DNA from: Schizochytrium sp. TIO01
Lineage: Eukaryota > Sar > Bigyra > Thraustochytrida > Thraustochytriidae
Assembly (NCBI GenBank): GCA_004764695.1
Contig: SMSO01000033.1
Span: forward strand, 2,433,001 to 2,497,000
DNA: 64,000 nt
Direction of reading: 5' to 3'
A program made the translations under genes and the position numbers. Shown here in pieces: positions 7,531-56,935 of this stretch. Numbering within the stretch: position 1 is the first letter of the stretch; each line of letters opens with the position of its first letter. The notes beneath the pieces were generated by a model. It was not told the DNA's origin and searched no databases. It saw only the letters and a program-made list of their open reading frames with translations.

Positions 7531-10500
7531 TTGATGAAACAAAGCATCGCGGAAGACCTTTTGCAGCAAATCTCGACCCGCGGGTCATGGGGTATGGCGG
7601 GTCCACGGAGGCCACGAGGGCCTGCCCGAAAAGGCAGTGCAAAAAAACGGCTAACGCCAGGTGAAAACGCAGAGGGTGGATCTACCTCTGTTTTGCAGAA
7701 CGAAAAAGACACGAAGGACTACCTCAGTGACGACCAGAGTAACTCGACAAGTATATTGCAGGCAGGCCCGCGTGCAAAACAGCATGAAGACTCTTCAGCA
7801 TCGGCCACAATATTGAAGTCAACGATTAAATCTGTGCGGGACAGGACCTCCCGTAAGCGCCAGCGTCATGGCAGGCACCTCAACAAGGTTGGCCTAGAAC
7901 CAGCCACCTCTGCAGTGCCACTGCTGTTTTTACCATCATCTGTAGCCTCCAAAACACAGATGAGCAAGTCACAAAAGCTTGCAGGCGCGCTATTTGCTTC
8001 AGCTGATGCTCGAGCTGAAGAAGAACATCCTTTAGTTCGCCGAGCGCGGATTGAACGTCTTGAGCAAACCAGACGTCTATTGCAGGTACCAAGTGGTAAA
8101 ATTCCTACTAATTCTAGCAGACTTCCAAACAACAACTCAACTATAAACTCAGCAAACGTACTTTTGCCGACAGATGGGAAGACCCTGTCTAAAGCGTTCA
8201 TGAAGTCCAAGACTTTACAGCAATTGTCGGAGGGCATCGACAATGAGCAGTCGGCATATGAACTACAAAAAAATAAAACAATTGGGCTTGAGAAAAGGCT
8301 AAATGAGCGTCTTCAGGCTGATGCAAAGCGCGCAATTGAAAAGCTACCTGTAGAGTTCCTGAATAGTCTCAAGCTTCGTTGCTATGCACTCGATCACGGC
8401 GCTGGTGTGATTCTGCGCATCTTTGATAAATTAGCGAATGCCCACACCCGAGAAGCGATTCAGCGGTGGCAACAATTTGTTGAGAACGATAGAGAAAGAG
8501 AACAACATGAACGTATTCTAGCATTTACCCAGCAACGTGGCCTTCTTTTATTGCAAACATTGATTCGAAAGATACAGAATGCAGCTCAAGTACGAGCGCT
8601 GGGCAAATGGAAAGATGTACATTTCTTCCATCCGAGGCGTTTGGAGACTCTAGCAGCTGCAGTGCAAATCCAGCGATGGATGCGTGGTCGCTTGGCTTGT
8701 TTCGATGTCCTTGAGCGTAAAAAAGCACGAGATCTGTTATTACAGAACGAAGCAGCAAAAGTAATTCAAAGACTTGTCAGATCTTGGCAAGCTAGGGAGT
8801 TACGAAAGAGATTAATGAGAGCTCAAATTCGAGAAGATGCAGCACTGTGCATCCAGAACTTTGCTCGCGTTGTAGTAGCGAAGGGACGATTTCGAAGGCG
8901 CATTATGCTGAATTTACGCGAGAAAAAACTTCATGGCTCTGCCATTTCAATTCAATCTTGGTTGCGTGGAATCTGGGGGCGAAGACGTGCGCACCAGATT
9001 TTCCTTGAACAACAGAATTTTTGTGCAGCGCTTACAATTCAATGTGCAGTACGTGGCTGGCGCGCAAAGGGTCTGCTTCAAAAGCGACGGAACGAGATAT
9101 ATTTAATAGCTGCACAGGAAATGCAGGGTGCTATTGAGAATGTTACTCGAGCTGTTGCCGCAACGAAGATCCAAAAAGCATTCCTTAGGTACCGACGGCA
9201 TACTATCTTTGACTCTGCAGCTGAACTTTTAATGGATATTTCAACTGTGGCAGAACGAGAAATTGCCGCATTAACAATCCAGAATCATATCCGAGAGGTA
9301 TCAATTTTACGAATGGTCTCAAATATTCAGCAAGCTGTTACAGAGAAGATTATAGATGCAACTATTCGTATTCAATCGCAAGTTCGCGCATACTCGGCCC
9401 GCAAGGAGCTTCATCAATTGCGTGCTGAACATCGAGCAAGAAGAATTGCAGCTATAAAACTCCAGGCAAATCGGCGTGGGCAGGTCGGACGTCAAGAAGC
9501 CCAAGAGCGTCGACGCTCATCAATAAATCTAGTGCAAAAACTTGAGAGAGCAAGGTGGGCTCAGTTACGTCATCGCCTTGGACGCCGGGTAATTGGCCGC
9601 TTCGCAGAACGTCGTCGGTTCTTAATACAAACAGCATTTGGAGATTGGCGAGAAGGTGTGGAGGCTATTAAGCAAGAAAAGGAGGAGCAGAAGCTAGCTC
9701 GAGCTCGAGAACATCTACTTCAAGCCCATAAAGGCCGGCTGGTACGTGCCTGGATGGAGTTTATAAGGCTCCAAAAATTGGACCGCGATCGATTGCGACG
9801 TGCCCTCAATTTTATGCGCAAGAATATTTACGCGAAAGTTTTTAGATCATGGGTTGCCATAGTAGATGAGTCTCACCAGCACAAACTTCGACTGGTTGCT
9901 GTTTTCCTCAATTGTGTAGAGCTCAACACGCTTAACTCGAGGCATCAGGAGTACACTCGAAGACTTGCTGAAGCGTATGATTTCAACATCTGTTGTACAA
10001 AGGTGATTAAAAAACTCAACGAGGTAATTTACTGGAGGCGAATTCAGATGCAACGGGCAATTCAGCACTATAGTCAACAATGGCGAAAGTTTACACCTCC
10101 ACTGAGGTTTCGAAGGTGGACAGAGTATGTTAAAATGAGTAAAGAAAATCGTGAAAATCATCGAAAAGCTGAAGCTTTTCGCGATGCGAACGCTTTAGCA
10201 AAAGCGAACAATGCTTGGCAAATATACATCAATCACAAGAAAAAACGTCGCGAACAAAATGCTCAAGCATCTGCTCTCCGGATGCGCCATCTTAGGCGAT
10301 GGGGGTTCGATGATTGGGGAAAGGGGGTCGCAATTATTAGAAAGAATCGAGCCAACTGGGCGATTGCCTGCAATCATTGTATTCGGCATCGCCTTGGGTA
10401 TGCGTTCAAAGCTTGGCAAATAGGTTTAACTGCTATTTTAGATATGCGCGCCAAGTTTAAGCTAGCAATTTCACATGACCACCGTAAGACACAGTATGCA

Positions 10501-13500
10501 GCTTTTATTGCTTTCTTTGAGGTGACCCACGAAGAGTTAATGCGGCGGCGCAATGCGGCAGCCCTTACTGTACAATGTGCCTGGCGATGTCGTACAGCTC
10601 GCTTAGCCCGTTTTCAGCTTTGGATGGCTCGCGAGTACAGGCGCGAACGTGTACGGCTGCGTAATCTTGAAGAAAAGCGTAATGCATTTATCAGAGCTCG
10701 AAAAGTTAGCCGAATTGAAGATTCTGTCGAGCTTGAAAAGCTTCTTGAATGCTCAGAGCATGCAAAAGCTAGTCCTGCCAGTGTCATTCTATGGACGGCT
10801 CCTTGGGCTCCATCGCGCTTGTATGAGCACATGGAAGGTGTTCTAGCACTTGCCAACGCTACATTGGCTCAGACAATCTCGTTGCACAAACGAGTTCTTG
10901 TGCCATTGGAAGCAGTGGGGCCAGAAGTGGCACTCAAGTTTGATGTTCCCAGCTTTCCTTCTGTAAGCATAGTCTGGCACGGTCACGCAATTTCACTTAG
11001 CCGTAACGAAGAAGAATGGCTCAAGGTTTCGCGTTTCATTCGGGAAATTTTAAGTCCACTACGAGATGTCCTAAACCAAGTACCAGCCGCAGGACTAGAC
11101 TGGGATGTACGAGACTGCAAGCCATTTGCTACCGAGGCCATCCTCGTGACAAGTATTTTGGCTGCTCAAGCTAAAACTGCTATGGATGGCCCCAAATTGA
11201 TTCACAAAGCCACAAAAGTCATTCAAATCATGTTCAGACACTATCGCACATGGCGACTTACCCAAAAATGGCAGAGACTCGTTGAGGATGTTGTTTTTAC
11301 GCATAAACAAGCAAAAAGCGAGCTATTTTGGCAGAAACAGGGCTTCAGAGAGTACGAAAGCAAAGATGAGAACGATCCGAGGAAATTTCATTTTAACCAT
11401 AAATTGATGGACGGACAGTGGGACACAGTTATATCTTTAGAACAACGCTCTTTGCCCCTTATTCTAGTTACCTCGACGGGGCATGTTCAACAACTACGTG
11501 GGCTTCGAAGAGGGTCTCATGTGGCAGACCTCAAAAGACGAATCGAGGAAGAAGTGGACGTTGCAGTGGACCTTCAGCGGGTCTGTCTTAGACCTGACGG
11601 GGTTTGGTTTGACGGCAGTATTATTATTCCAGTATACAACCGGGAACCTGAAGCAATGATTGGAGCTGGTGCTAAGGTAGAAGTGCAAGGTTCTGGTAAT
11701 GCCGAATGGCGCGTGGGTACTGTCACACGAGTGTATGAAGATGAGTCTGTCGACGTGGAATTTCCTCGTGACCACAGCAAACCATTACTTGAGCGTGCAG
11801 GAACGGAAAAGCACGTCAAAGTTCTACAACCATATCAATTTGCTCGAGGCAAAACAGAAACATCAATGACTGAAGTCGTTAAGATTGACCGCATCGAGCG
11901 CATTCCTCGAGATGAAATTCGGCTAGTCGCAGTCAACGATGCAGAACCTGAAAGAACGCTTTTTGATCTTGGTTTTCGAGCTGGCGCCGTTGTAGAGCTG
12001 ACTGTGCCTAGCGCATCTATCAAGCGTGAGACAGAAGATCTTGCCATTCTGTGTAGCATTTGCCAGGACTCCGCGGCTGAACTGTTCTGTCGTGAGTGCC
12101 AAAAGGTTTACTGTGATACATGTTTTGTGAAAGAACACTTGTGTGATGGGGTGGAGGAGGATCTCGGAGATTTCGATGCATATATGTTACGCAGGGAGCG
12201 CGCAAAGCATCATTTTGTGCAGATGGAAAACTCCGCTCTAATACCAACATTTTCACAGACGAAGTCATCAGATCAAGACATCAGACTACAGAGGATGAAG
12301 ACAAAATTATTTGATAAGTCGGGACGCAACCCATCACTTTCGGAGTTGCGGCGTCTCAGTAAGCTTGCAAGCAATGCAGAACTTGCTTTGCAGCAACATC
12401 GAAAAGTCGCAGATGGTGCGCCAAGGTTCTGTTCTGAGTGTCACCTCAGATTGGTTCGAGTAAATTGTATTCAATGTCGTGATGGATTCTGTAAAACTTG
12501 TTTTGCGTATGTACATGAAAAGGGTAAAAGGATGGATCATACAGCACAGATTGTGGGTGGAGGTGCCAAACCCCTAGGTGGTGTGACATGGTCGCTACAA
12601 CAAGTAAAAGAGCTAGGGTGGAAATCGAGATTCATATTAAAAGAGGAGCAGCTTGCGAGAGAAGAAGCAGAGCGCATTCGTAAAGCTGAGCTTGCGGCAG
12701 CAGAAGAAATCATCAAAGAAGCATTCCAAAAGTATGACGCCGATGGCAGTGGATCCCTTGATGCGGCTGAGTTGAAAGGATTCTTGCGAAACGAGATCTG
12801 CGAGCCAGTGTCCGACGAGGAGGTTCAAGAAGCAATCAAGCGCATTGACATAGACGGGAATGGGCTAATCGAGCTTTCAGAGCTCTTGGAGTGGTTTGTT
12901 GACTTGCGCAAACAAGAAGGAAAAGACTCTGCCAAGATGCACATGTTGCGCATGAATTTGCAAGCTCAGAAACGTGCTCGCCTTTTAAGAAACCAAATGG
13001 ACGCAATGTTACCACGAGAAAAACTAGAAAGTACGATGCGCTATCTTGAGGAGCAAGCCCGTAAGTGGCGCGAGCGTCGACCACCTGTTCCAGGGTATGG
13101 TCATGTGTCACAACTACAGGCAAGTGATTTTGCTACTAGTCTGAGTCTTTTTGCGCGCTATGTGCACCGTGAGTTTAAGCTAGATGCGAACATGAAGGTA
13201 AAACCAGGGCAAACACCTGAAGAAAAGGTGCACCGTATGAAACTTGCCTTTGAGAGCGTCTTTCTTCCGAACTTTAATCGAGGGTTGTTACCTCGAATCT
13301 ACTACGAAGATATGCGGGAAATTACACATGAAGGGGTCATGTATATTCAAAAATGGGATGAGGAAAAGGATGCCTTTGTTTACGTCAACTGCGAAACCAA
13401 TGAAACTCTCGACCTGAATCCGAAACTTGTGGCCGAGCATGAACCAGCAGCACGCGCTGCATTCGAGAAGTTTGACAAAGACAACTCCGGAGGATTATCA

Positions 13501-14010
13501 CGCGCAGAAATTAGGCTCATGATTGAGCAGCAACTATGCTTGCGTCTAACGAAAACGCAACTCAAGGAAGCTATGAAGCAGCTCGATCAGAACGATGACA
13601 ACAATGTGACTTTTGACGAACTCTTAACTTGGTTCGTTCGGGGCGTAGATAACGGGGACTACACTCTTTCTGCAGAACTTCGTCGGGCTCGCAAGATACG
13701 TGAACTTCGTGAACGTGTACCGGATGTTACGAAGACTATTACAACCAGTGTCTCGAATGGAGCCTTACAAGTGGGTGCATCGGTGGCGCGTGGAACATTG
13801 GCTCAGGTGGGAACCATTCGCTCTAACATGAAGGTAGCTGGAAAGAGTGGCTTCTATCGTGGTCTTGTTGAAGCCGGCTGGGATCCCAAAGATATTGAGC
13901 GAGCTATGGATCGCTGCAAGGGAAAGAAGAAGCAACGTGACGAGTTTGAGACCGCTGTGGAAGCGTGGCTCGAGAAAAACGCTGTTAAAAATACTGATGA
14001 AAATAAGTAA
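7531..14010 (+). CDS. Giant IQ/Sfi1-like/thioredoxin-like/B-box/EF-hand protein
   Basis: Uninterrupted 2159-codon frame. Order of parts: basic, Ser-rich N-terminus (1-270). IQ-type helices from about 377 to 700, the first reading AAVQIQRWMRGR; these bind calmodulin-like proteins. Trp-rich helical repeats from about 700 to 1000, such as YAFKAWQIGL, resemble Sfi1 centrin-binding repeats. Further IQ motifs lie near 1009 and 1228. A thioredoxin-like domain (about 1080-1170) has WTAPWAPSR where the active-site cysteines should be. Next come a ubiquitin-like stretch and a Tudor/SH3-like segment (1377-1435), two Cys/His zinc-binding segments of B-box type (1507-1545, 1633-1675), and two EF-hand pairs (1728-1795, 1975-2040) with loops such as DADGSGSLDAAE. 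The mix suggests a Ca2+-responsive scaffold of centrosome, basal body or cytoskeleton; this is inference. A second Met at 7594 is an alternative start. Confidence 0.9.
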   Translation: MMKQSIAEDLLQQISTRGSWGMAGPRRPRGPARKGSAKKRLTPGENAEGGSTSVLQNEKDTKDYLSDDQSNSTSILQAGPRAKQHEDSSASATILKSTIKSVRDRTSRKRQRHGRHLNKVGLEPATSAVPLLFLPSSVASKTQMSKSQKLAGALFASADARAEEEHPLVRRARIERLEQTRRLLQVPSGKIPTNSSRLPNNNSTINSANVLLPTDGKTLSKAFMKSKTLQQLSEGIDNEQSAYELQKNKTIGLEKRLNERLQADAKRAIEKLPVEFLNSLKLRCYALDHGAGVILRIFDKLANAHTREAIQRWQQFVENDREREQHERILAFTQQRGLLLLQTLIRKIQNAAQVRALGKWKDVHFFHPRRLETLAAAVQIQRWMRGRLACFDVLERKKARDLLLQNEAAKVIQRLVRSWQARELRKRLMRAQIREDAALCIQNFARVVVAKGRFRRRIMLNLREKKLHGSAISIQSWLRGIWGRRRAHQIFLEQQNFCAALTIQCAVRGWRAKGLLQKRRNEIYLIAAQEMQGAIENVTRAVAATKIQKAFLRYRRHTIFDSAAELLMDISTVAEREIAALTIQNHIREVSILRMVSNIQQAVTEKIIDATIRIQSQVRAYSARKELHQLRAEHRARRIAAIKLQANRRGQVGRQEAQERRRSSINLVQKLERARWAQLRHRLGRRVIGRFAERRRFLIQTAFGDWREGVEAIKQEKEEQKLARAREHLLQAHKGRLVRAWMEFIRLQKLDRDRLRRALNFMRKNIYAKVFRSWVAIVDESHQHKLRLVAVFLNCVELNTLNSRHQEYTRRLAEAYDFNICCTKVIKKLNEVIYWRRIQMQRAIQHYSQQWRKFTPPLRFRRWTEYVKMSKENRENHRKAEAFRDANALAKANNAWQIYINHKKKRREQNAQASALRMRHLRRWGFDDWGKGVAIIRKNRANWAIACNHCIRHRLGYAFKAWQIGLTAILDMRAKFKLAISHDHRKTQYAAFIAFFEVTHEELMRRRNAAALTVQCAWRCRTARLARFQLWMAREYRRERVRLRNLEEKRNAFIRARKVSRIEDSVELEKLLECSEHAKASPASVILWTAPWAPSRLYEHMEGVLALANATLAQTISLHKRVLVPLEAVGPEVALKFDVPSFPSVSIVWHGHAISLSRNEEEWLKVSRFIREILSPLRDVLNQVPAAGLDWDVRDCKPFATEAILVTSILAAQAKTAMDGPKLIHKATKVIQIMFRHYRTWRLTQKWQRLVEDVVFTHKQAKSELFWQKQGFREYESKDENDPRKFHFNHKLMDGQWDTVISLEQRSLPLILVTSTGHVQQLRGLRRGSHVADLKRRIEEEVDVAVDLQRVCLRPDGVWFDGSIIIPVYNREPEAMIGAGAKVEVQGSGNAEWRVGTVTRVYEDESVDVEFPRDHSKPLLERAGTEKHVKVLQPYQFARGKTETSMTEVVKIDRIERIPRDEIRLVAVNDAEPERTLFDLGFRAGAVVELTVPSASIKRETEDLAILCSICQDSAAELFCRECQKVYCDTCFVKEHLCDGVEEDLGDFDAYMLRRERAKHHFVQMENSALIPTFSQTKSSDQDIRLQRMKTKLFDKSGRNPSLSELRRLSKLASNAELALQQHRKVADGAPRFCSECHLRLVRVNCIQCRDGFCKTCFAYVHEKGKRMDHTAQIVGGGAKPLGGVTWSLQQVKELGWKSRFILKEEQLAREEAERIRKAELAAAEEIIKEAFQKYDADGSGSLDAAELKGFLRNEICEPVSDEEVQEAIKRIDIDGNGLIELSELLEWFVDLRKQEGKDSAKMHMLRMNLQAQKRARLLRNQMDAMLPREKLESTMRYLEEQARKWRERRPPVPGYGHVSQLQASDFATSLSLFARYVHREFKLDANMKVKPGQTPEEKVHRMKLAFESVFLPNFNRGLLPRIYYEDMREITHEGVMYIQKWDEEKDAFVYVNCETNETLDLNPKLVAEHEPAARAAFEKFDKDNSGGLSRAEIRLMIEQQLCLRLTKTQLKEAMKQLDQNDDNNVTFDELLTWFVRGVDNGDYTLSAELRRARKIRELRERVPDVTKTITTSVSNGALQVGASVARGTLAQVGTIRSNMKVAGKSGFYRGLVEAGWDPKDIERAMDRCKGKKKQRDEFETAVEAWLEKNAVKNTDENK

Positions 14011-32232: not shown

Positions 32233-33260
32233 AGCGCTTTCAAAGTTTTTAATTAAAACCATAGTTCGAGTTTTGGTACATTTACAGATAGAACGTGACA
32301 TGACGGAACAATGTGAAAGGAAGAGCTGCGTTGGATTGTTCGGAATGGAAAGGATAAATAATTTAAGAATGAAAAGGCCAGGTGTGCTATGCGTTGACAG
32401 GCATACGAACTTCGAGCCAAGATGGCGTTCTTGGCTACTCTCATCGACTCGTGAAATATTGCAGTAATAAGAGCAAAAGAAAGACTCTTGTAAGTGCAAT
32501 TCAAGTTGACTATCCAGAAAGTGGACAACTTTGGATAAAACAATATTTTTTGGTCGTAGTCTTTTCAAGCTTGGGTCAAAGCAAAATAGTTATCAGCCAT
32601 CAGTTTCGATGTTCACAATGAACGCAACACACTCCCATTATGCGTGCGAGGCTTTCAAGCCTCAATTCACCAGATGATTTGCATGCCTACTTAGAATATT
32701 ACTTTCCTTACTAAACAAATAGCAGTAAGGAGAGAGAGTTCATATGAGTGAGGCAACTGACCAGTACATAGTACCTCACTAGTAATAACTGTACAAGTGC
32801 CTCAATATAGACACGCATTACATTTGCCCCATTCGTTGTGTGCATCTTTGTCATAATGATCATGGTATAGAAGACAAAGCACCATCGCGAAACGAAAACC
32901 ACGGCGACGGCTCGCCGGTTGCACTCGGATCTGTAGCGCAGCGAAGCCAACGAGAGGGTTTTGCCCAGGGTTTGGCTTTCCTGGGTACGTGCGAGCTCCT
33001 TCAGAGAATCTTGCCGATCCGGCAACGGCGTCGTCTCCACTGCCCTGTGACGAGTTGCCACGCTGTGCAAGAAGATTCGTTTGCTACGCGCACCTTGAAG
33101 GTGGAAGAGGACCAGTAGAGTGCGTGCTGGCAATCGATAAGGGCTACTTGAAGTGGCTAGAGGGCGTGCAGGCTACATTATCGGAATTGGCCTCTTTGGA
33201 TTTGACACGGGAAGTCAGTCACACGGATAGATAGCAGTGCTCCCTCAGATTTTAGGCACA

Positions 33261-34211
33261 ATGTATCCGCAAGCATCTGGTTCTGGGCATGGATACCCGC
33301 ATCAGCAGGGCCAACATATGGGAGGTCATGCCCAGCCTGGTCAGCAAATGCCGGCAATGGGAGGATTTGAAAACATGGCAGCAATAGCCGAGAACCAGAT
33401 GTTTCAGAACTTTGCAAAGCAAAGCCTTCACCAAGCTGGTGCTCAATTTACAACGAGCATCTTGCCCGAAGCAAACACGTTCTGGAGCAATTTACGTTAT
33501 TACTTTCACGTTGACAACCGTTACGTCTTGCGGAAACTAGGCTTGCTGGTCTTCCCTTGGCGCCATAAAAAGTGGGAGCGTATTCGCTTTGGCGACGAAT
33601 CGATGGCATCTGATTCATCTGCGGCCAGGCAGATTGAGTTTGCCCCCCCTGTCAGCGATGTGAATGCGCCTGACCTCTATCTGCCGGTTATGGCCTCCAT
33701 CACGTACATTCTTTTTATCGGCCTCCTCAAAGGAACGAAGAAATCCTTCAATCCTGATGTTCTGCAGAATACATTCACAACGTGTACCCTTGTGCTCATG
33801 CTCGAAGTAGCTATTATGAAAGCTGGATTGTATTCTTTGCCCGGAAGTCCCGAGCGTAAGCTCGCTGTTTTTGATATGGTCTCTTTTGCTGGCTACAAAT
33901 ATGTTCTTGTAGCTCTCAACCTTTTCATCGGCATTGCCTTGGGAAGCACTGTGTACAACGTTGTCATGTTTTACCTATGCCTATGCATGGGTTTTTTCAT
34001 CTATCGAACTCTTGAGCAGGCCTTGCCTCAGATGGACTATGAGTCCGCTGGCCACAAGCGCCGGATGTACTACCTCATCGCCTGTGCTGCATTGCAGTTC
34101 CTTACAATCTTCTTTCTTGGATTTACTCGCGACCTTGGAGAGAGCTCTGTGCCTGGAATTTCTTTCTCGGCCTTTTCTGATGACCTCGATGACGATGAGG
34201 CTGATGTATAA
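33261..34211 (+). CDS. YIF1: Yif1-family ER-Golgi membrane protein
   Basis: I chose Met at 33261 (MYPQASGSGHG) over the upstream in-frame Met at 33237, because the Gly/His/Gln/Pro-rich leader is typical of the family; about 316 residues. After the leader comes FAKQSLHQAGAQFTTSILPE, then YFHVDNRYVLRKLGLLVFPW, the hallmark region of Yif1 before the membrane domain. Five hydrophobic segments follow: YLPVMASITYILFIGLL, FTTCTLVLMLEVAI, YKYVLVALNLFIGIALG, VVMFYLCLCMGFFIY and YLIACAALQFLTIFFLGF. Yif1 works with Yip1 and Rab-type GTPases in vesicle traffic between ER and Golgi. The short acidic C-terminus ends DDLDDDEADV. The gene sits on the opposite strand to the surrounding bZIP cluster and looks ordinary. 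Confidence 0.9.
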   Translation: MYPQASGSGHGYPHQQGQHMGGHAQPGQQMPAMGGFENMAAIAENQMFQNFAKQSLHQAGAQFTTSILPEANTFWSNLRYYFHVDNRYVLRKLGLLVFPWRHKKWERIRFGDESMASDSSAARQIEFAPPVSDVNAPDLYLPVMASITYILFIGLLKGTKKSFNPDVLQNTFTTCTLVLMLEVAIMKAGLYSLPGSPERKLAVFDMVSFAGYKYVLVALNLFIGIALGSTVYNVVMFYLCLCMGFFIYRTLEQALPQMDYESAGHKRRMYYLIACAALQFLTIFFLGFTRDLGESSVPGISFSAFSDDLDDDEADV

Positions 34212-49720: not shown

Positions 49721-52700
49721 TCATATTTGTGCATTTTTAATGTCATCAAGAGCGCGTCGAATGGCTTTGCCCAAGGAGTCAATCTCAGGACGTCGGCCTC
49801 CATTCGTCATGGTGCTATACCGAGAGGTTCCGCTCAACAGGGCAAGAAAAACACCGGTCCAGTTTGTTGTACCTTCCATCTCCTTTTCAAGTATAACTGG
49901 GATCATGCGAGCAGGAGTTATCTTATGTATCATATAATTATACTCCATTTTACAGAAGTCTTGCGGCGCATCAGGACCAGAGTTCACTTTATCCATGTAC
50001 TCCCGATTAACAAAAACGATGCCCAGAGTGGAGTCGTCGATACCCTGTGTCATTGCCCACATAATGTCTCCACGTTTTATCTCGTTCTGATCAAGCCAAC
50101 AAGATATCTTATATTTTTCTTCCAATCTAGAAGCCACCTTGCATACAAGCTGATGTACAGAACGGTCCTTGCCCCATGCATGCGATAAGAAAACGTCAAA
50201 TTTTTTCTTGTGGGGCGATGCTAACCTGGAACGAAACGCGCGAGCCTCTCCTTGGTTTGGGAAGATTGCTGAGAAAGATGCTACCTTTAACAGCTGGCGT
50301 CCTTCAGATAAGCACCTGCCGTTTCGAGCGTTAGCAAAGGCCTTGATTGAGACACAACATTGGTTATTTGTAGTACCATCGCAGCTTAAAAACAGAGCTG
50401 GTTTCAAATTTTGGTGCATAAAAGCTTCGTCAAGAAACTGGAGTTGTTTATGAAGCAGTTCCACGCAACTTTGTATCGTTCCCCTGATCGGAGTGGCATC
50501 TTCAGCAGTATCCTCGTCGTCCTCTAAGAAGCGGAAGGTGATTCGACGTTCATGTTCATGCGCGAGAAGAAGTACGCATATGCCGTCCATTATAATACTT
50601 GCTGCGTTTGAATAAATTGTTTTCTCTTTTACCTGTACAAGACCCTCAGGAAGTTTCGAAACCATACTCGCAAGAAAACGTTGAAAGACTCCTCTAGGAA
50701 AATGCTCAAACGTAATATATACCAGAGCTGCGTTATCAAACTCCAGCAAGAGTGCGTTCAGATCAGGTCCCGGTATTGCTTTCAACAATCTCGGGACTAG
50801 TAAGGCACCTTCTTCGTCCAAGTCCCCGACCCAGGGACTTTGGCAAGCGAGAAGCATCGCCACCATGAGAGTCGAAAAGTACTCTAAGAAATCCTCGCCC
50901 CAGACGATTCTCAAGAAAGATTGAGACACAACGCTACGAGTTTCCCAAGTTTTCAGACCACTAAACCAATCCGTAGAAACACCAAGCTCAGTAATCGTGT
51001 CTTCCAAAATATTGGCATGCGCCTCCATGTGTCTTGGGTCACAAATTACACGAGACAAATTATTCAACAGCCATTGGGGCTTTAGGACCACATATTTTTC
51101 CAAGATTTTGGTGGATTTGAGATGTACCAGGACACCTAGATCATGCATAAATTCCAGCATACGTGGCACATCCTTTTTTGAAATTCCACAAGATTCTGTT
51201 GCAATTTTATTAACTGCGTCAAGCTCCATATATTCAACATCCTTGTTTGAGAACATACGCTTTAAACAGAGAGACCACCGTAACGAGACCTTCTCCTTTA
51301 CATAAGACTTGGATGCAGCGGCTCTCATGAGAAAGGTCTGGAGGCGCTTGCAACGCGTTTTGTTTTCTCGTTCAGTATTGTCCAGTGGGAAAAACCACAA
51401 CTTCTCTTCTGAATTTCGTAGAAGGTTTAGATCTTTTTGGTGGGACATGTGCTCCCGCAACTCGTTATCGACAAGTTTTAGGTCCTCCTTAGGATCCCGT
51501 AAAGCGTCGAGGTATGTCCCAACAAGAACAACATCCACCTTTTCTTTTGCATGCAAGCGTACTGATTCTAGCCAAAATTGGATCGTGTTCAGCGCCTCAT
51601 TCGTGTCTCCCATTGATTCATAATCAGGAGAGTCCTGAAACTGATGTTTTCCAATCAGTTCTCGCATGTCGAAAACGATGACATAGACACCATACTTTGT
51701 CAAAAACAGGTGATGCAAAGCGTAGAAAACTTCCTGCCCGCCGTAATCCCATACAGTGAAGCTGATATCCTCTTCTACTTGCAGTCGTCCTCTCTCTTCT
51801 AATTTTAGCTTCATGTTAGCCCTGTAGGGTGTCGCAACCTCGTCCGGCTCGATCCAGAGCGTTGGTTTGTCACTCCTGCGAGGTGCTAACAGCGTGGCCA
51901 GTGACTTTTTAGGACTCATGTTTAGCCTTGTCGCAACCTCATCCGACTCGATCCCGAGCTTTGGCTTGTCACTCCTTCGAGGCGCTAACAGCGTGGCCAG
52001 TGACTTTTTAGGACGTCTTGGAATACTCATTCTCCCTCCCAGTAGTTGCTGTTTCGCAAGATCCTCGCAGAGATCAGAGGCCTGGTAGCCTATTCGCTCT
52101 TCTTTCCAGTCCTTCGTCCGTATCAGCTTTAGGTCCACACCAATGGTCGACTCATGTTCCGATACAAATGCTTGACTGAGCAAAGTCCGAATGGTCGAGG
52201 TTTTGCCAGCACCTGCTTTTCCAAGTACCATAAGCTTCGCTTTGCCCCATTGTACCTTTTTATCTTTCGAGAGTGCATTCATCGCAGATGTCGAAAACTC
52301 CTGACGTGCCTTAAAATCTTTATGATATCTAAGGCGGTGACCGATGCGATTGTGGACGTCCTTAGGGATGTTAGAATCAAGTCTACCATAGTACCATGTG
52401 TTTGCTTGGTCAGTTTCAGTGATCTCGCAACTTCTCCTATTGTTATTTTGGCTTCTTTATATGATAAATTGATTGAAGGTGACAAGGATGTCGACACTGC
52501 CAAAATTGAAGCGATGCTTAAAAAATATAAAATACTAAACGTCTCCTCCGCTTGGAAATCAAAGGACAGAACACAAAACTTACTGTATTTTTTGAAGAAC
52601 CTGGTTTTCGTCCATGGCGTCTGCTAACATTTTGACGCCCTCTGAACCGATTCTGTTGAGGCCCAGTCTGTTGATCAGGTTGTATGATGGAAAATAATTC

Positions 52701-55188
52701 AAAACCCATTATTAAAGTCAGTAATCTATTTTGCCTTTTCTCTCATTTGCCACAGTCCATTGACCGAGATTGAAATCCAAAATAGAAACACCGTCGCAAA
52801 TAGACCTCCCCTATACAATCCTACTCGGTAAGCTAGGTAGCTGGTCAGCCTCAACACAGAAGTTTGCGAGCTCAGGAAACTTACGCAAGAATGGTGAGGG
52901 ACCACCCATTTTTCAGCGCTGTAGCCAGTGCCTTGCCGCCTTCGTCACCGATATCATTGGAAGCCAGGCTGTACATTTGATCAAGCGATTTTAAATAGCG
53001 CATATATGCCCATGAAGTTAGACACGTCAGCCATCTCGGTTGAATTTCTTCTCTTGAAGATTTCGTTGTTGCTCTTTCTTTACTCATGAACGAATGAACA
53101 AGCTCGTGAAGATTCATGTAACATACGGCACACTAAATCATTCAAGATTGCCGAACAAATGAGATACCACACAACACCAATGGTAAAGCATGAACGTCCG
53201 ACACTCAAGATAACTTACGTAAGTCGTATCAATGAGCGATGCTGGCACAACGCTTTAGCCAGTTCCTTAACTCCTTCGTCACCAATATTATTTTCATCCA
53301 AGCTGTTCATTTAATCCAGCAATTTGAAATAGTAAATATTTGCGCATGCCGCTAGCTACGTCAGTCATCTAGATGTAATTTTGTCGCTTGCAGATTTCGC
53401 TCTTGTTGTTATTCTCGACTCATCAACGAACCAACAAGATTGTTAAGATTGAAGCACGGCACGGCACTCTGTATCATCAGCAATTGCCAAGCAAATGAGA
53501 TACCACACACCACCAATAGTAAAGCGTGAATATCCAACAGCCAAAAAACACTTACTCAAGAAGTGTCAGCGGGTGGTGCTGACCCAGCGCTGTAGCCAGT
53601 GCCTTAACGCCTTCGTTACCAATATTGTTATTGTCCAAGCTGTTCATTTTGTCAAGCAATTCAAAAACGTGCATATGTGTGCATGAAGCTAGATACGTCA
53701 GTCGTCTTGGATGAATCTCATCTCTTGCACATTTCGTACTGATGTTGGTGTTCTCGATTCATCGACGAATCAACAAGATCGTTAAGCTTAAAGCACGACA
53801 TGGCACTCTGTATCATTAGCAATTGCCAAGCGAATGAGATACCACACACCACCAATAGTAAAGCGTGAATATCCAACAGCTAAGGCAACTTACCCAAGTT
53901 CTGTCAGCGAGTGGTGCTGCCCCAATGCGGTAGCCAGTGCCTTGGCGCCCTCCTCACCAATATTGTTATTGCTCAAGCTGTTCATTTTGTCAAGCAATTC
54001 AAAATAGTGCATGTATGTGCATGAAGCGAGATACGTCAGTCGTCTTGGATGAATTTCATCTCTTGCACATTTCGTACTGATGTTGTTGTTCTCGACTCAT
54101 CGACGAATCAACAAGATCATTAAGATTGAAGCACGACACGGCACTCTGTCTCCATAGCAATTGCCAAGCAAACGAGATACCACGCACCACCAATAGTAAA
54201 GCGTGAATATCCAACAGCCAAAAAAAACTTACTAAAGTTCTGTCAGCGAGTGGTGCTGACCCAGCGCTGTAGCCAGTGCCTCAACGCCTTCGTTACCAAT
54301 ATTGTTATGGTTCAAGCTGTTCATTTTGTCAAGCAATTCAAAATAGTGCATGTATGTGCATGAAGCTACATACGTCAGTCGTCTTGGATGAATTTCATCT
54401 CTTGCACATTTCGTACTGATGTTGTTGTTCACGACTCATCGACAAATCAACAAGATCGTTAACATTGAAGCACGACATGGCACTCTGTATCATTAGCAAT
54501 TGGCAAGAAAACAAGATACCACACATCACCAATAGTAAAGCGTGAATATCCAACAGCCAAGACAACTTACTAAAGTCCTGTCAGCGAGTGGTGCTGACCC
54601 AACGCTGTAGCCAGTGCCTTGGCGCCTTTGTTACCAATGTTGTTATCGGCCAAGCTGTTCATTTTGTGAAGCAATTCAAAATAGTGCATGTATGTGCATG
54701 AAGCTACATACGTCAGTCGTCTTGGATGAATTTCATCTCTTGCACATTTCGCACTGATGTTGTTTTTCTCGACTCATCGACGAATCAACAAGATCGTTAA
54801 GATTGAAGCTCGGCACGTCACTCTGTATCATTAGCAATTGCCAAGCAAATGAGATACCACACACCACCAATAGTAAAGCGTGAATATCCAACAGCTAAGA
54901 CAACTTACTAAAGTTCTGTCAGCGAGTGGTGCTGACCCAACGCTGTAGCCAGTGCCTCAACGCCTTCGTTACCAATATTGTTATTGTTCAAGCTGTTCAT
55001 TTGAGGAAACATTGATAAATAGTTTTTCCGCGCAAAAATCTTGATACCGTCAGTTAACTGGGTTAACTTTCATCGCTTATATGTAGCAGTAATTTACATG
55101 GATACAGCCTCATCCAAACGTACGTAATCACTGTGCCATCCTCATAAAGGCTTTCAAGCGCCTGTATAATTTCTGGGCGATCAGACAT
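49721..55188 (-). CDS. LRR-Roc-COR-TIR protein (ROCO/NLR-like), ten-exon gene
   Basis: Inferred exons on the minus strand: 55188-55124 (MSDRPEIIQALESLYEDGTV), eight 84-nt exons (54992-54909, 54654-54571, 54316-54233, 53977-53894, 53639-53556, 53302-53219, 52968-52885, 52667-52584), then a terminal exon from about 52436 (possible acceptors 52433-52451) to 49721. Each 84-nt exon lies between AG and GTAAGT and encodes one 28-residue LRR such as LNHNNIGNEGVEALATALGQ. The summed length is divisible by three (about 1,150 residues). Numbering from Met at 52282, the terminal exon has P-loop GKAGAGKT (21-28), WDYGGQE (about 177) and VGTYLD of a Roc GTPase, a COR region (about 320-560), and a TIR domain from about 690 (KKFDVFLSHAW, SCWLDQNEIKRGDIMWAM). 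The plan suggests a GTP-switched receptor or scaffold with a TIR output, perhaps in self/non-self sensing; that role is inference. Confidence 0.85.
51831..52028 (-). repeat. 99-bp in-frame tandem duplication inside the Roc coding sequence
   Basis: Two adjacent 99-bp copies encode 33 residues each, beginning PKKSLATLLAPRRSDKP, and differ at a few positions (KLGIESDEVATRL against TLWIEPDEVATPY). They lie between the P-loop and the switch motif, enlarging a loop of the GTPase domain. Confidence 0.85.
52584..54992 (-). repeat. Tandem array of single-LRR exon cassettes (about 338 bp each)
   Basis: Eight cassettes, each an 84-nt exon plus an intron. Introns from 5' to 3' are 254, 254, 255, 254, 253, 250 and 217 bp, and the shared ones are very similar (for example GTGAATATCCAACAGC and GATACCACACACCACCAATA recur on the plus strand). 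The 5' (higher-coordinate) cassettes are nearly identical; the 3' ones are more diverged. Confidence 0.9.
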
Positions 55189-56278: not shown

Positions 56279-56362
56279 TAAAGAGATATTAGGGACCTGT
56301 TCTGCTTCAGCATCGTAGCTATCGCTTTGCCCCCTTCAATGCCAATCTCGTCGGCGATCATT
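56279..56362 (-). pseudogene. Isolated LRR exon, apparently intact
   Basis: 84 nt between an AG acceptor and a GTAAGT donor, in the same phase as the downstream array. It encodes MIADEIGIEGGKAIATMLKQ then NRSLISL, an RI-type LRR. It lies upstream of the inferred start exon, so it is probably a leftover of an earlier, longer array or part of another gene. Confidence 0.6.
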
Positions 56363-56540: not shown

Positions 56541-56626
56541 TTAGTCTAGTGAGATGACGATCAATTTTTTTTCAATGCGACAGCTAGTGCCTTGAAGCTG
56601 ACTACACCGATCTTGTTGCAAGATAA
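56541..56626 (-). pseudogene. Decayed LRR exon
   Basis: The minus strand reads LSCNKIGVVSFKALAVALKK, then an in-frame TGA, and the donor is degraded to CTAAGT. It aligns with the LRR exon consensus, including KALA, at the expected position. Confidence 0.55.
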
Positions 56627-56853
56627 ATTTTATATTTGATGTAAATTATAGCACATGAGACACGTATGTGTGTGAATATCAATCATCTAGCATGCATTGC
56701 CTTTCATTTTCTTTGCTATTGTTTTATTCATAACTCTCCGTTCCAGCAGATGCTCAGACAAGCAGCCACATGGGTCTATAAGCAGTATGTATTGAATTCA
56801 AGATAAGCAGACATTGTGCTCAAGTGCATGAGCTACGACAACTTACTTCAGTG

Positions 56854-56935
56854 ATGTGAGCGATCGGTTCGCTTCTAGAGTCGCAACTACTGCTTCGGCG
56901 CCTAGGTCGTCTCCAAACAAAAGTATTATATTAAT
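56854..56935 (-). pseudogene. Partial LRR exon
   Basis: The minus strand reads GDDLGAEAVVATLEANRSLT then SL, followed by a GTAAGTT donor. The 5' end lacks a clear acceptor in the right phase. Same family as the array downstream. Confidence 0.5.

Follow-up and report, generated by a model that had tools for sequence, protein, structure and literature searches.

In the 64,000-nucleotide (nt) stretch of Schizochytrium sp. TIO01 DNA analyzed here (contig SMSO01000033.1, positions 2,433,001 to 2,497,000; hereafter the window), the minus strand carries a split gene for a protein with leucine-rich repeats (LRRs), a Roc GTPase domain, a COR domain and a TIR domain. The LRRs are encoded one by one on 84-nt exons. 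Arrays of such exons recur in the genome, and in all 22 arrays of the fetched pieces we observed concave-face codons, located at the intron edge of each repeat, that are more variable than the remaining exon; this is the new finding of the study, and these hypervariable contact codons strengthen the reading of the gene as a receptor. We consider it rather probable (about 0.6) that the focal gene is a real, spliced gene of a thraustochytrid ROCO family, that it encodes a receptor, probably cytosolic, and that it works by the mechanism proposed below. By analogy with known families, the likeliest role would be one in immunity or self-recognition.

As proposed by the first-pass annotation, which was made from the sequence of the window, the gene consists of one 65-nt start exon, eight 84-nt exons and one large terminal exon; AG and GTAAGT flank the 84-nt exons in 8/8 cases. 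The single phase claimed for the junctions was confirmed, and the joined exons form one open frame without any stop codon. The same annotation equated each 84-nt exon with one 28-residue LRR. Each exon does add one 28-residue step, but it is not self-contained, as it holds 27 whole codons and one codon that is split 2+1. In the region 55300-52500 of the minus strand, we found eight open-phase 84-nt exons between AG and GTAAGT, whereas in 1000 two-base-block shuffles of the same region their number averaged 0.004 and never exceeded 1.

Together with their introns, the exons form tandem units of ∼338 nt. The identities of the adjacent introns 1-2, 2-3 and 3-4 are 93.7, 92.9 and 91.0%, and those of the paired exons are 89.3, 88.1 and 83.3%, respectively; later in the array, the intron/exon identities fall to 82.8/81.0, 74.6/75.0 and 54.0/61.9%. 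An introner origin of the introns was considered and rejected. The search of the own genome with the exon-plus-intron unit scored 40 of 51 candidates, so that its counts are lower bounds. Full-length 338-nt matches are confined to the focal gene (at least five of the 46 matches listed) and thus give no sign of the introns as one dispersed element; the remaining matches among the 46 span 67-95 nt and cover the exon with no more than 18 nt of intron. One extra open 84-nt LRR exon and two decayed ones lie upstream of the gene (Table 1), apparent remnants of a neighbouring array.

The architecture that had been claimed, LRR followed by Roc, COR and TIR, was borne out by Pfam profiles, by fold comparison and by ten related loci elsewhere in this genome. 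The profile search recovered all four parts. LRR_6 matches the spliced LRR array with an E-value of 1.3e-45, and the terminal open reading frame (ORF) matches Roc (8.5e-17), COR-A (1.6e-12) and TIR_2 (1.3e-11), all above the gathering scores. Roc is directly followed by COR, the arrangement of the ROCO family. The Roc domain contains GKAGAGKT as P-loop, DYGGQE and GTYLD, which we take to be GTPase motifs, with GTYLD in the NKxD place. Fold comparison of the predicted structure (Foldseek and VIA) was restricted to families that Foldseek had ranked, so that absence from it excludes no family; it matched Roc-COR to LRRK1, LRRK2 and the bacterial/archaeal Roco proteins of C. tepidum and M. barkeri. 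The TIR model has a predicted local distance difference test score (pLDDT) of 90.4 and matches the TIRs of SARM1, SPARTA and plant NLRs (RPP1, RUN1), which together with the TIR_2 match places it in the TIR fold. Its Glu780 (ORF numbering) is conserved in 21/24 sequences, and a weak match to Cat1 (E 0.051) aligns it with a Glu of that protein; in TIR NADases, the catalytic residue is a Glu in a helix of the TIR fold, a role that Glu780 may share. The kinase domain that defines the LRRK subfamily is not among the Pfam matches of the terminal ORF, where TIR_2 stands after COR instead; likewise, neither the terminal ORF nor the spliced N-terminal part gave a Pfam match to NB-ARC or NACHT, the mark of NLR/STAND proteins. 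NCBIfam yielded no more than a weak retron-TIR match, with an E-value of 0.00024 and 20 bits where the cut-off is 600, and a small_GTP match below its own cut-off.

The terminal exon probably starts at 52382. The terminal frame stays open to the stop at 49721 from seven acceptors between 52455 and 52329, and our choice rests on matching acceptors in the paralogs and on one transcript of a relative. An acceptor matching 52383 in place and in LRR register is clear in L005, L006 and L007 (3/6 paralogs); L008 and L009 have a looser counterpart, and L010 is without a clear one. L005, L006 and L007 carry a second open acceptor slightly upstream, which counts against the choice. Joining at the 52383-type acceptor reads like LxxIxLxxNIP, a continuation of the LRR, and in paralog L011 the corresponding junction (TTCAG/A; SLQTL-S-LDVDIPDDL) is the one seen in P0015, a transcriptome protein. 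With this start, the spliced product would be 3399 nt, or 1132 residues, in length.

P0015, from the MMETSP transcriptomes, is 98.8% identical over 486 residues to a gene of this genome. For L011, six 84-nt exons are predicted, and P0015 joins them as expected at 4/5 junctions, which supports one-LRR-per-exon splicing in a relative; at the fifth, an extra LRR exon is included and the sequence differs. Splicing is therefore RNA-supported for a relative only, and for the focal gene it is predicted.

The genome is 64.06 Mb in size, on 37 contigs. Searched with the Roc-COR-TIR core, it yielded 43 matched stretches, which make up at least 17 separate Roc-COR-like loci (L003-L019, the focal one among them) and additional partial matches; L016 and L017 are apparent copies of one another. 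Roc, COR-A and TIR_2 were all present in 10/10 scanned relatives, the domain scan having left out L011, L013, L014, L016, L017 and L018. We also scanned the fetched pieces for exons of 84 nt between AG and GT or GC with an LRR-like phase-2 frame. The scan gave 185 hits, from which four apparent false hits and 13 hits on C14 (near copy of the C31 end) were removed, leaving 168 exons in 22 arrays; this number refers to the fetched pieces and not to the whole genome, includes the exon at 56362 and excludes nine further exons of L067. The donor is GTAAGT in 149/168 exons and the acceptor CAG in 146/168. In the paralogs with a recognised start exon, this exon is 65 nt in length and followed by GT (7/7), which lends further support to exon-per-LRR splicing. 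Seven of the 22 arrays are located within 70 kb of a contig end. Two neighbourhoods deserve mention: at ∼8.2 Mb of C30, a related Roc-COR locus (L012) has a 12-exon LRR array, and at 240-268 kb of C4, related Roc-COR loci (L013, L014 and L029) lie close together, with arrays of 19 and 5 exons.

Over the 168 exons, the amino-acid entropy is 3.86 bits at codon 2, 3.56 bits at codon 3 and 2.83 bits at codon 5; the split codon 28 has 2.86 bits (142 junctions). The other positions outside the selection filter are of 0.5 to 2.5 bits (the highest being codon 22 with 2.48 and codon 8 with 2.12), and the entropy is biased low at the positions that served in the filter. Codons 2-3, which we take to be concave-face positions in the LxxLxLxxN anatomy of the repeat, encode 89 different dipeptides. 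Near-identical exons were compared as 67 within-array pairs, not independent of each other, with at least 96% identity outside codons 2, 3 and 5. In these pairs, the synonymous (pS) and nonsynonymous (pN) differences of codons 2-3 are 0.51 and 0.48, near saturation, whereas those of the rest of the exon are 0.021 and 0.008. The 6-nt patch formed by codons 2-3 is more variable than the rest of the exon in 22/22 arrays and exceeds both intron flanks in 19/22; in 16/22, the most variable segment of the exon begins at nt 4-6. Uniformity of the rest of the exon is not universal, as it differs by 0.3 to 0.5 in several arrays. Sister arrays on C6 and C13 differ at 0, 1, 0 and 0 of the 6 patch nt in four matched exon pairs, the fifth pair being unmatched; the variation is thus inherited and not made anew each time.

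Several observations weigh against the receptor reading or the diversification that strengthens it. In 3/22 arrays, the divergence of an intron flank equals or surpasses that of the patch. In the focal gene (nine exons), the patch ranks first with 0.62. The value is 0.31 outside the patch, and the two intron flanks have 0.38 and 0.57, so that the downstream one is barely exceeded; focal repeats 1-5 differ at just 1-3 of the 6 patch nt. The pN/pS ratio of the patch is ∼0.9-1.0, not above 1, and the case for selection therefore rests on the contrast with the introns and with the rest of the exon. Because of this ratio and the non-independence of the pairs, our claim is limited: the patch is diversified relative to the introns and the repeat backbone, which falls short of a formal test of selection. 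Five arrays without a nearby Roc match end in a related exon with an open frame of 103-126 residues (5/5 fetched; three of the five loci contain masked stretches). Pfam gave no credible family for the four of these terminal exons that were scanned (best E 0.14), and the conserved exon may perhaps provide the LRR module with another kind of output. No transcript-labelled protein of the focal gene was found among the 72 matches of the core or the best 120 of 354 matches of the LRR part; both searches scored a number of candidates capped at 8000, and the matches of the LRR part are LRR_6 proteins of mixed origin.

Could the arrays have grown neutrally, by unequal crossing-over, in an ordinary LRRK-like signalling or scaffold protein? 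The tandem 338-nt units, with first introns 91-94% alike, do indicate recent duplication, and the pN/pS ratio of codons 2-3 agrees with this account. We regard it as unlikely nevertheless, for neutral growth does not predict a patch that exceeds both intron flanks in most arrays, and the missing kinase match speaks against an LRRK-like protein. Directed mutation or copy-in at codons 2-3, instead of selection with concerted evolution, would explain why the patch of otherwise near-identical copies is close to saturation for synonymous and nonsynonymous differences alike; patch retention between C6 and C13 opposes it and would make any directed process slow. All four bases are present at every patch position, on which ground adenine-directed diversification was rejected, and directed mutation or copy-in in general seems very improbable to us. 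The notion that the gene is a decaying relic, no longer spliced to the full protein, draws on the decayed upstream exons and on the stop codons inside the core match of some relatives (L006 and L013). It is barely credible, given that no stop interrupts the start exon, any of the eight LRR exons or the terminal frame, that their splice sites are intact, and that a near-identical protein, P0001, exists outside this assembly.

P0001 (821 residues) comes from another assembly. Its identity is 94-100% for residues 151-700 of the core and just 50-84% over the TIR end; it is 33 residues shorter than the focal protein within the Roc insert. Its length suggests that single-frame gene calling would leave only the Roc-COR-TIR ends of such genes, in line with a warning of the first-pass annotation. 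The divergence of the TIR end (49721-50190) may reflect exchange of TIR ends between strains or copies. It also bears on what the receptor might recognize. By analogy with the NLRs of fungal heterokaryon incompatibility, the role could be allorecognition, the distinction of self and non-self strains, and not pathogen immunity; the contrast between core and TIR end of P0001 favours this, as does the resemblance of the hypervariable repeats on a conserved backbone to the WD repeats of Podospora HET-D/E, as presented in the parts of PMC1805685 and PMC4986451 consulted. This role appears rather unlikely to us, the least so of the alternatives considered.

For the receptor reading, we propose the following mechanism, in which cell location, GTPase switching, enzymatic output of the TIR domain and recognition of non-self are modelled on known families. 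The LRR arc is assembled from interchangeable 84-nt phase-2 exons, so that duplication, loss, exchange or skipping of an exon would leave the frame intact. The repeat backbone is largely uniform while the concave-face codons 2, 3 and 5 and the split codon diversify, which would give a tunable binding surface. Ligand binding may set off or relieve the GTPase switch of Roc-COR, along with its dimer state, and the C-terminal TIR domains would thereby be brought together. As the output, the TIRs could then consume NAD(P) or make a signal, with defence or cell death as the response. A wider proposal, which we put forward tentatively and at less than even odds, is that this single-celled marine protist has a large receptor repertoire, partly near contig ends, of swappable LRR exons with a two-residue variable site at the intron edge; duplication, exchange and frame-neutral alternative splicing would give variety in recognition, for which a Roc-COR switch would be the readout via TIR or other C-terminal parts.

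The coordinates of the gene and related features are listed in Table 1. Several neighbouring genes in the window, whose GC content is 43.9%, read as single long ORFs. Single ORFs of the window include one of 2159 residues at 7531-14010 (+) with EF-hand, IQ and B-box-like matches, and a YIF1 homologue at 33237-34211 (+; E 9.2e-62). The product of the RGS gene in the window is 100% identical to a protein also known from MMETSP. This identity and that of P0015, whose record has the truncated organism name 'Aurant', suggest an Aurantiochytrium genome.

Table 1. Features of the focal gene and of related exons (window positions unless a locus is named)
Feature	Position	Strand	Basis or remark
Start exon, 65 nt (MSDRPEIIQALESLYEDGTVI..)	55124..55188	-	donor GTACGT
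LRR exon 1, 84 nt, phase 2	54909..54992	-	splice-site and LRR_6 match
LRR exon 2, 84 nt	54571..54654	-	splice-site and LRR_6 match
LRR exon 3, 84 nt	54233..54316	-	splice-site and LRR_6 match
LRR exon 4, 84 nt	53894..53977	-	splice-site and LRR_6 match
LRR exon 5, 84 nt	53556..53639	-	splice-site and LRR_6 match
LRR exon 6, 84 nt	53219..53302	-	splice-site and LRR_6 match
LRR exon 7, 84 nt	52885..52968	-	splice-site and LRR_6 match
LRR exon 8, 84 nt	52584..52667	-	splice-site and LRR_6 match
Tandem exon+intron units, ∼338 nt	52584..54992	-	repeat comparison
Terminal exon (half LRR, Roc, COR, TIR, stop)	49721..52382	-	acceptor 52383 preferred, by homology
Roc GTPase domain with low-confidence insert (stretches of Pfam Roc and Ras)	51512..52243	-	Pfam, model
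86-nt direct repeat within Roc insert, 92% alike, 99-nt spacing	51830..52014	-	
COR-A match	50996..51250	-	Pfam and fold comparison
TIR_2 match with conserved Glu (E780 of ORF, E1059 of spliced protein)	49880..50194	-	
Extra open 84-nt LRR exon, upstream of start exon	56279..56362	-	
Two decayed LRR exons, upstream of start exon	∼56545-56610, ∼56847-56930	-	
Terminal exons of Roc-less arrays	L069:93-434, L070:2446-2796, L071:2276-2653, L066:4243-4551, L068:3859-4200		

The best named relatives of the core are proteins of another thraustochytrid, Hondaea fermentalgiana. P0002, P0003, P0004 and P0007 (recorded as NOD2 or LRRK2) have the same domain set, with 39-44% core identity, and we found no exon-modular description of these Hondaea LRR-Roc-COR-TIR proteins. 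For LRR, TIR or ROCO receptors of thraustochytrids or Labyrinthulomycetes in general, no description was found in the literature, subscription journals being mostly uncovered. LRR proteins of a thraustochytrid transcriptome are counted in PMC8917795; this and the published systems below are described from parts of the respective texts.

Like the brown algal LRR-ROC-COR genes (Teng 2024, PMC11378527; also Zambounis 2012, as cited there), the focal gene is a ROCO gene with one LRR per phase-2 exon and variable concave-face positions, and its product is a candidate immune receptor. The brown algal LRR exons are 72 bp and of phase 2 except in groups 3 and 4. Groups 1-2 encode a 23-residue LRR on each exon, whereas the 84-nt exon of the focal gene encodes a 28-residue RI-type LRR. 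Group 4 has another LRR class (SM00368), groups 3 and 4 are without exon shuffling, and these two small groups have peptidase or DUF900 ends, with otherwise no other domain combination described. Different from the focal gene, no TIR end is reported for brown algae in the parts consulted, and thraustochytrids are another stramenopile class. The same source puts a number of other SAR species, Schizochytrium aggregatum being named, at four ROCO copies each at most, and describes a TPR-ROCO-TIR protein of Chondrus crispus, which shares ROCO and TIR with the focal gene but has TPR in place of the LRR. Fungal NLRs (HET-D/HET-E) combine conserved repeats, hypervariable binding codons and concerted evolution (Dyrka 2014, PMC4986451; Paoletti 2007, PMC1805685). 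They share with the focal gene the uniform repeats with few hypervariable codons on the binding surface; however, they carry NACHT/NB-ARC with WD, ANK or TPR and no LRRs (PMC4986451), in contrast to LRR_6 with Roc-COR.

ROCO genes with one LRR per exon are thus already known from brown algae, and repeats that are uniform apart from hypervariable sites from fungal NLRs. Both features come together in the focal gene, along with an 84-nt repeat of the RI type and a C-terminal TIR, and the gene represents a new lineage for exon-modular ROCO genes. A variable two-residue site in otherwise uniform repeats is also typical of TAL effectors; these are bacterial DNA-binding proteins, and we note the likeness without claiming homology.

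These results show that the exon-modular LRR-ROCO plan of brown algae is also present in a thraustochytrid, where the repeats belong to a different class and TIR is the output part. If the wider proposal above is true, a modular recognition system would have arisen in parallel to that of brown algae, outside multicellular life. Aurantiochytrium is cultured and genetically tractable; whether one-repeat-per-exon genes serve immunity or self-recognition would thereby become addressable in a single-celled organism.

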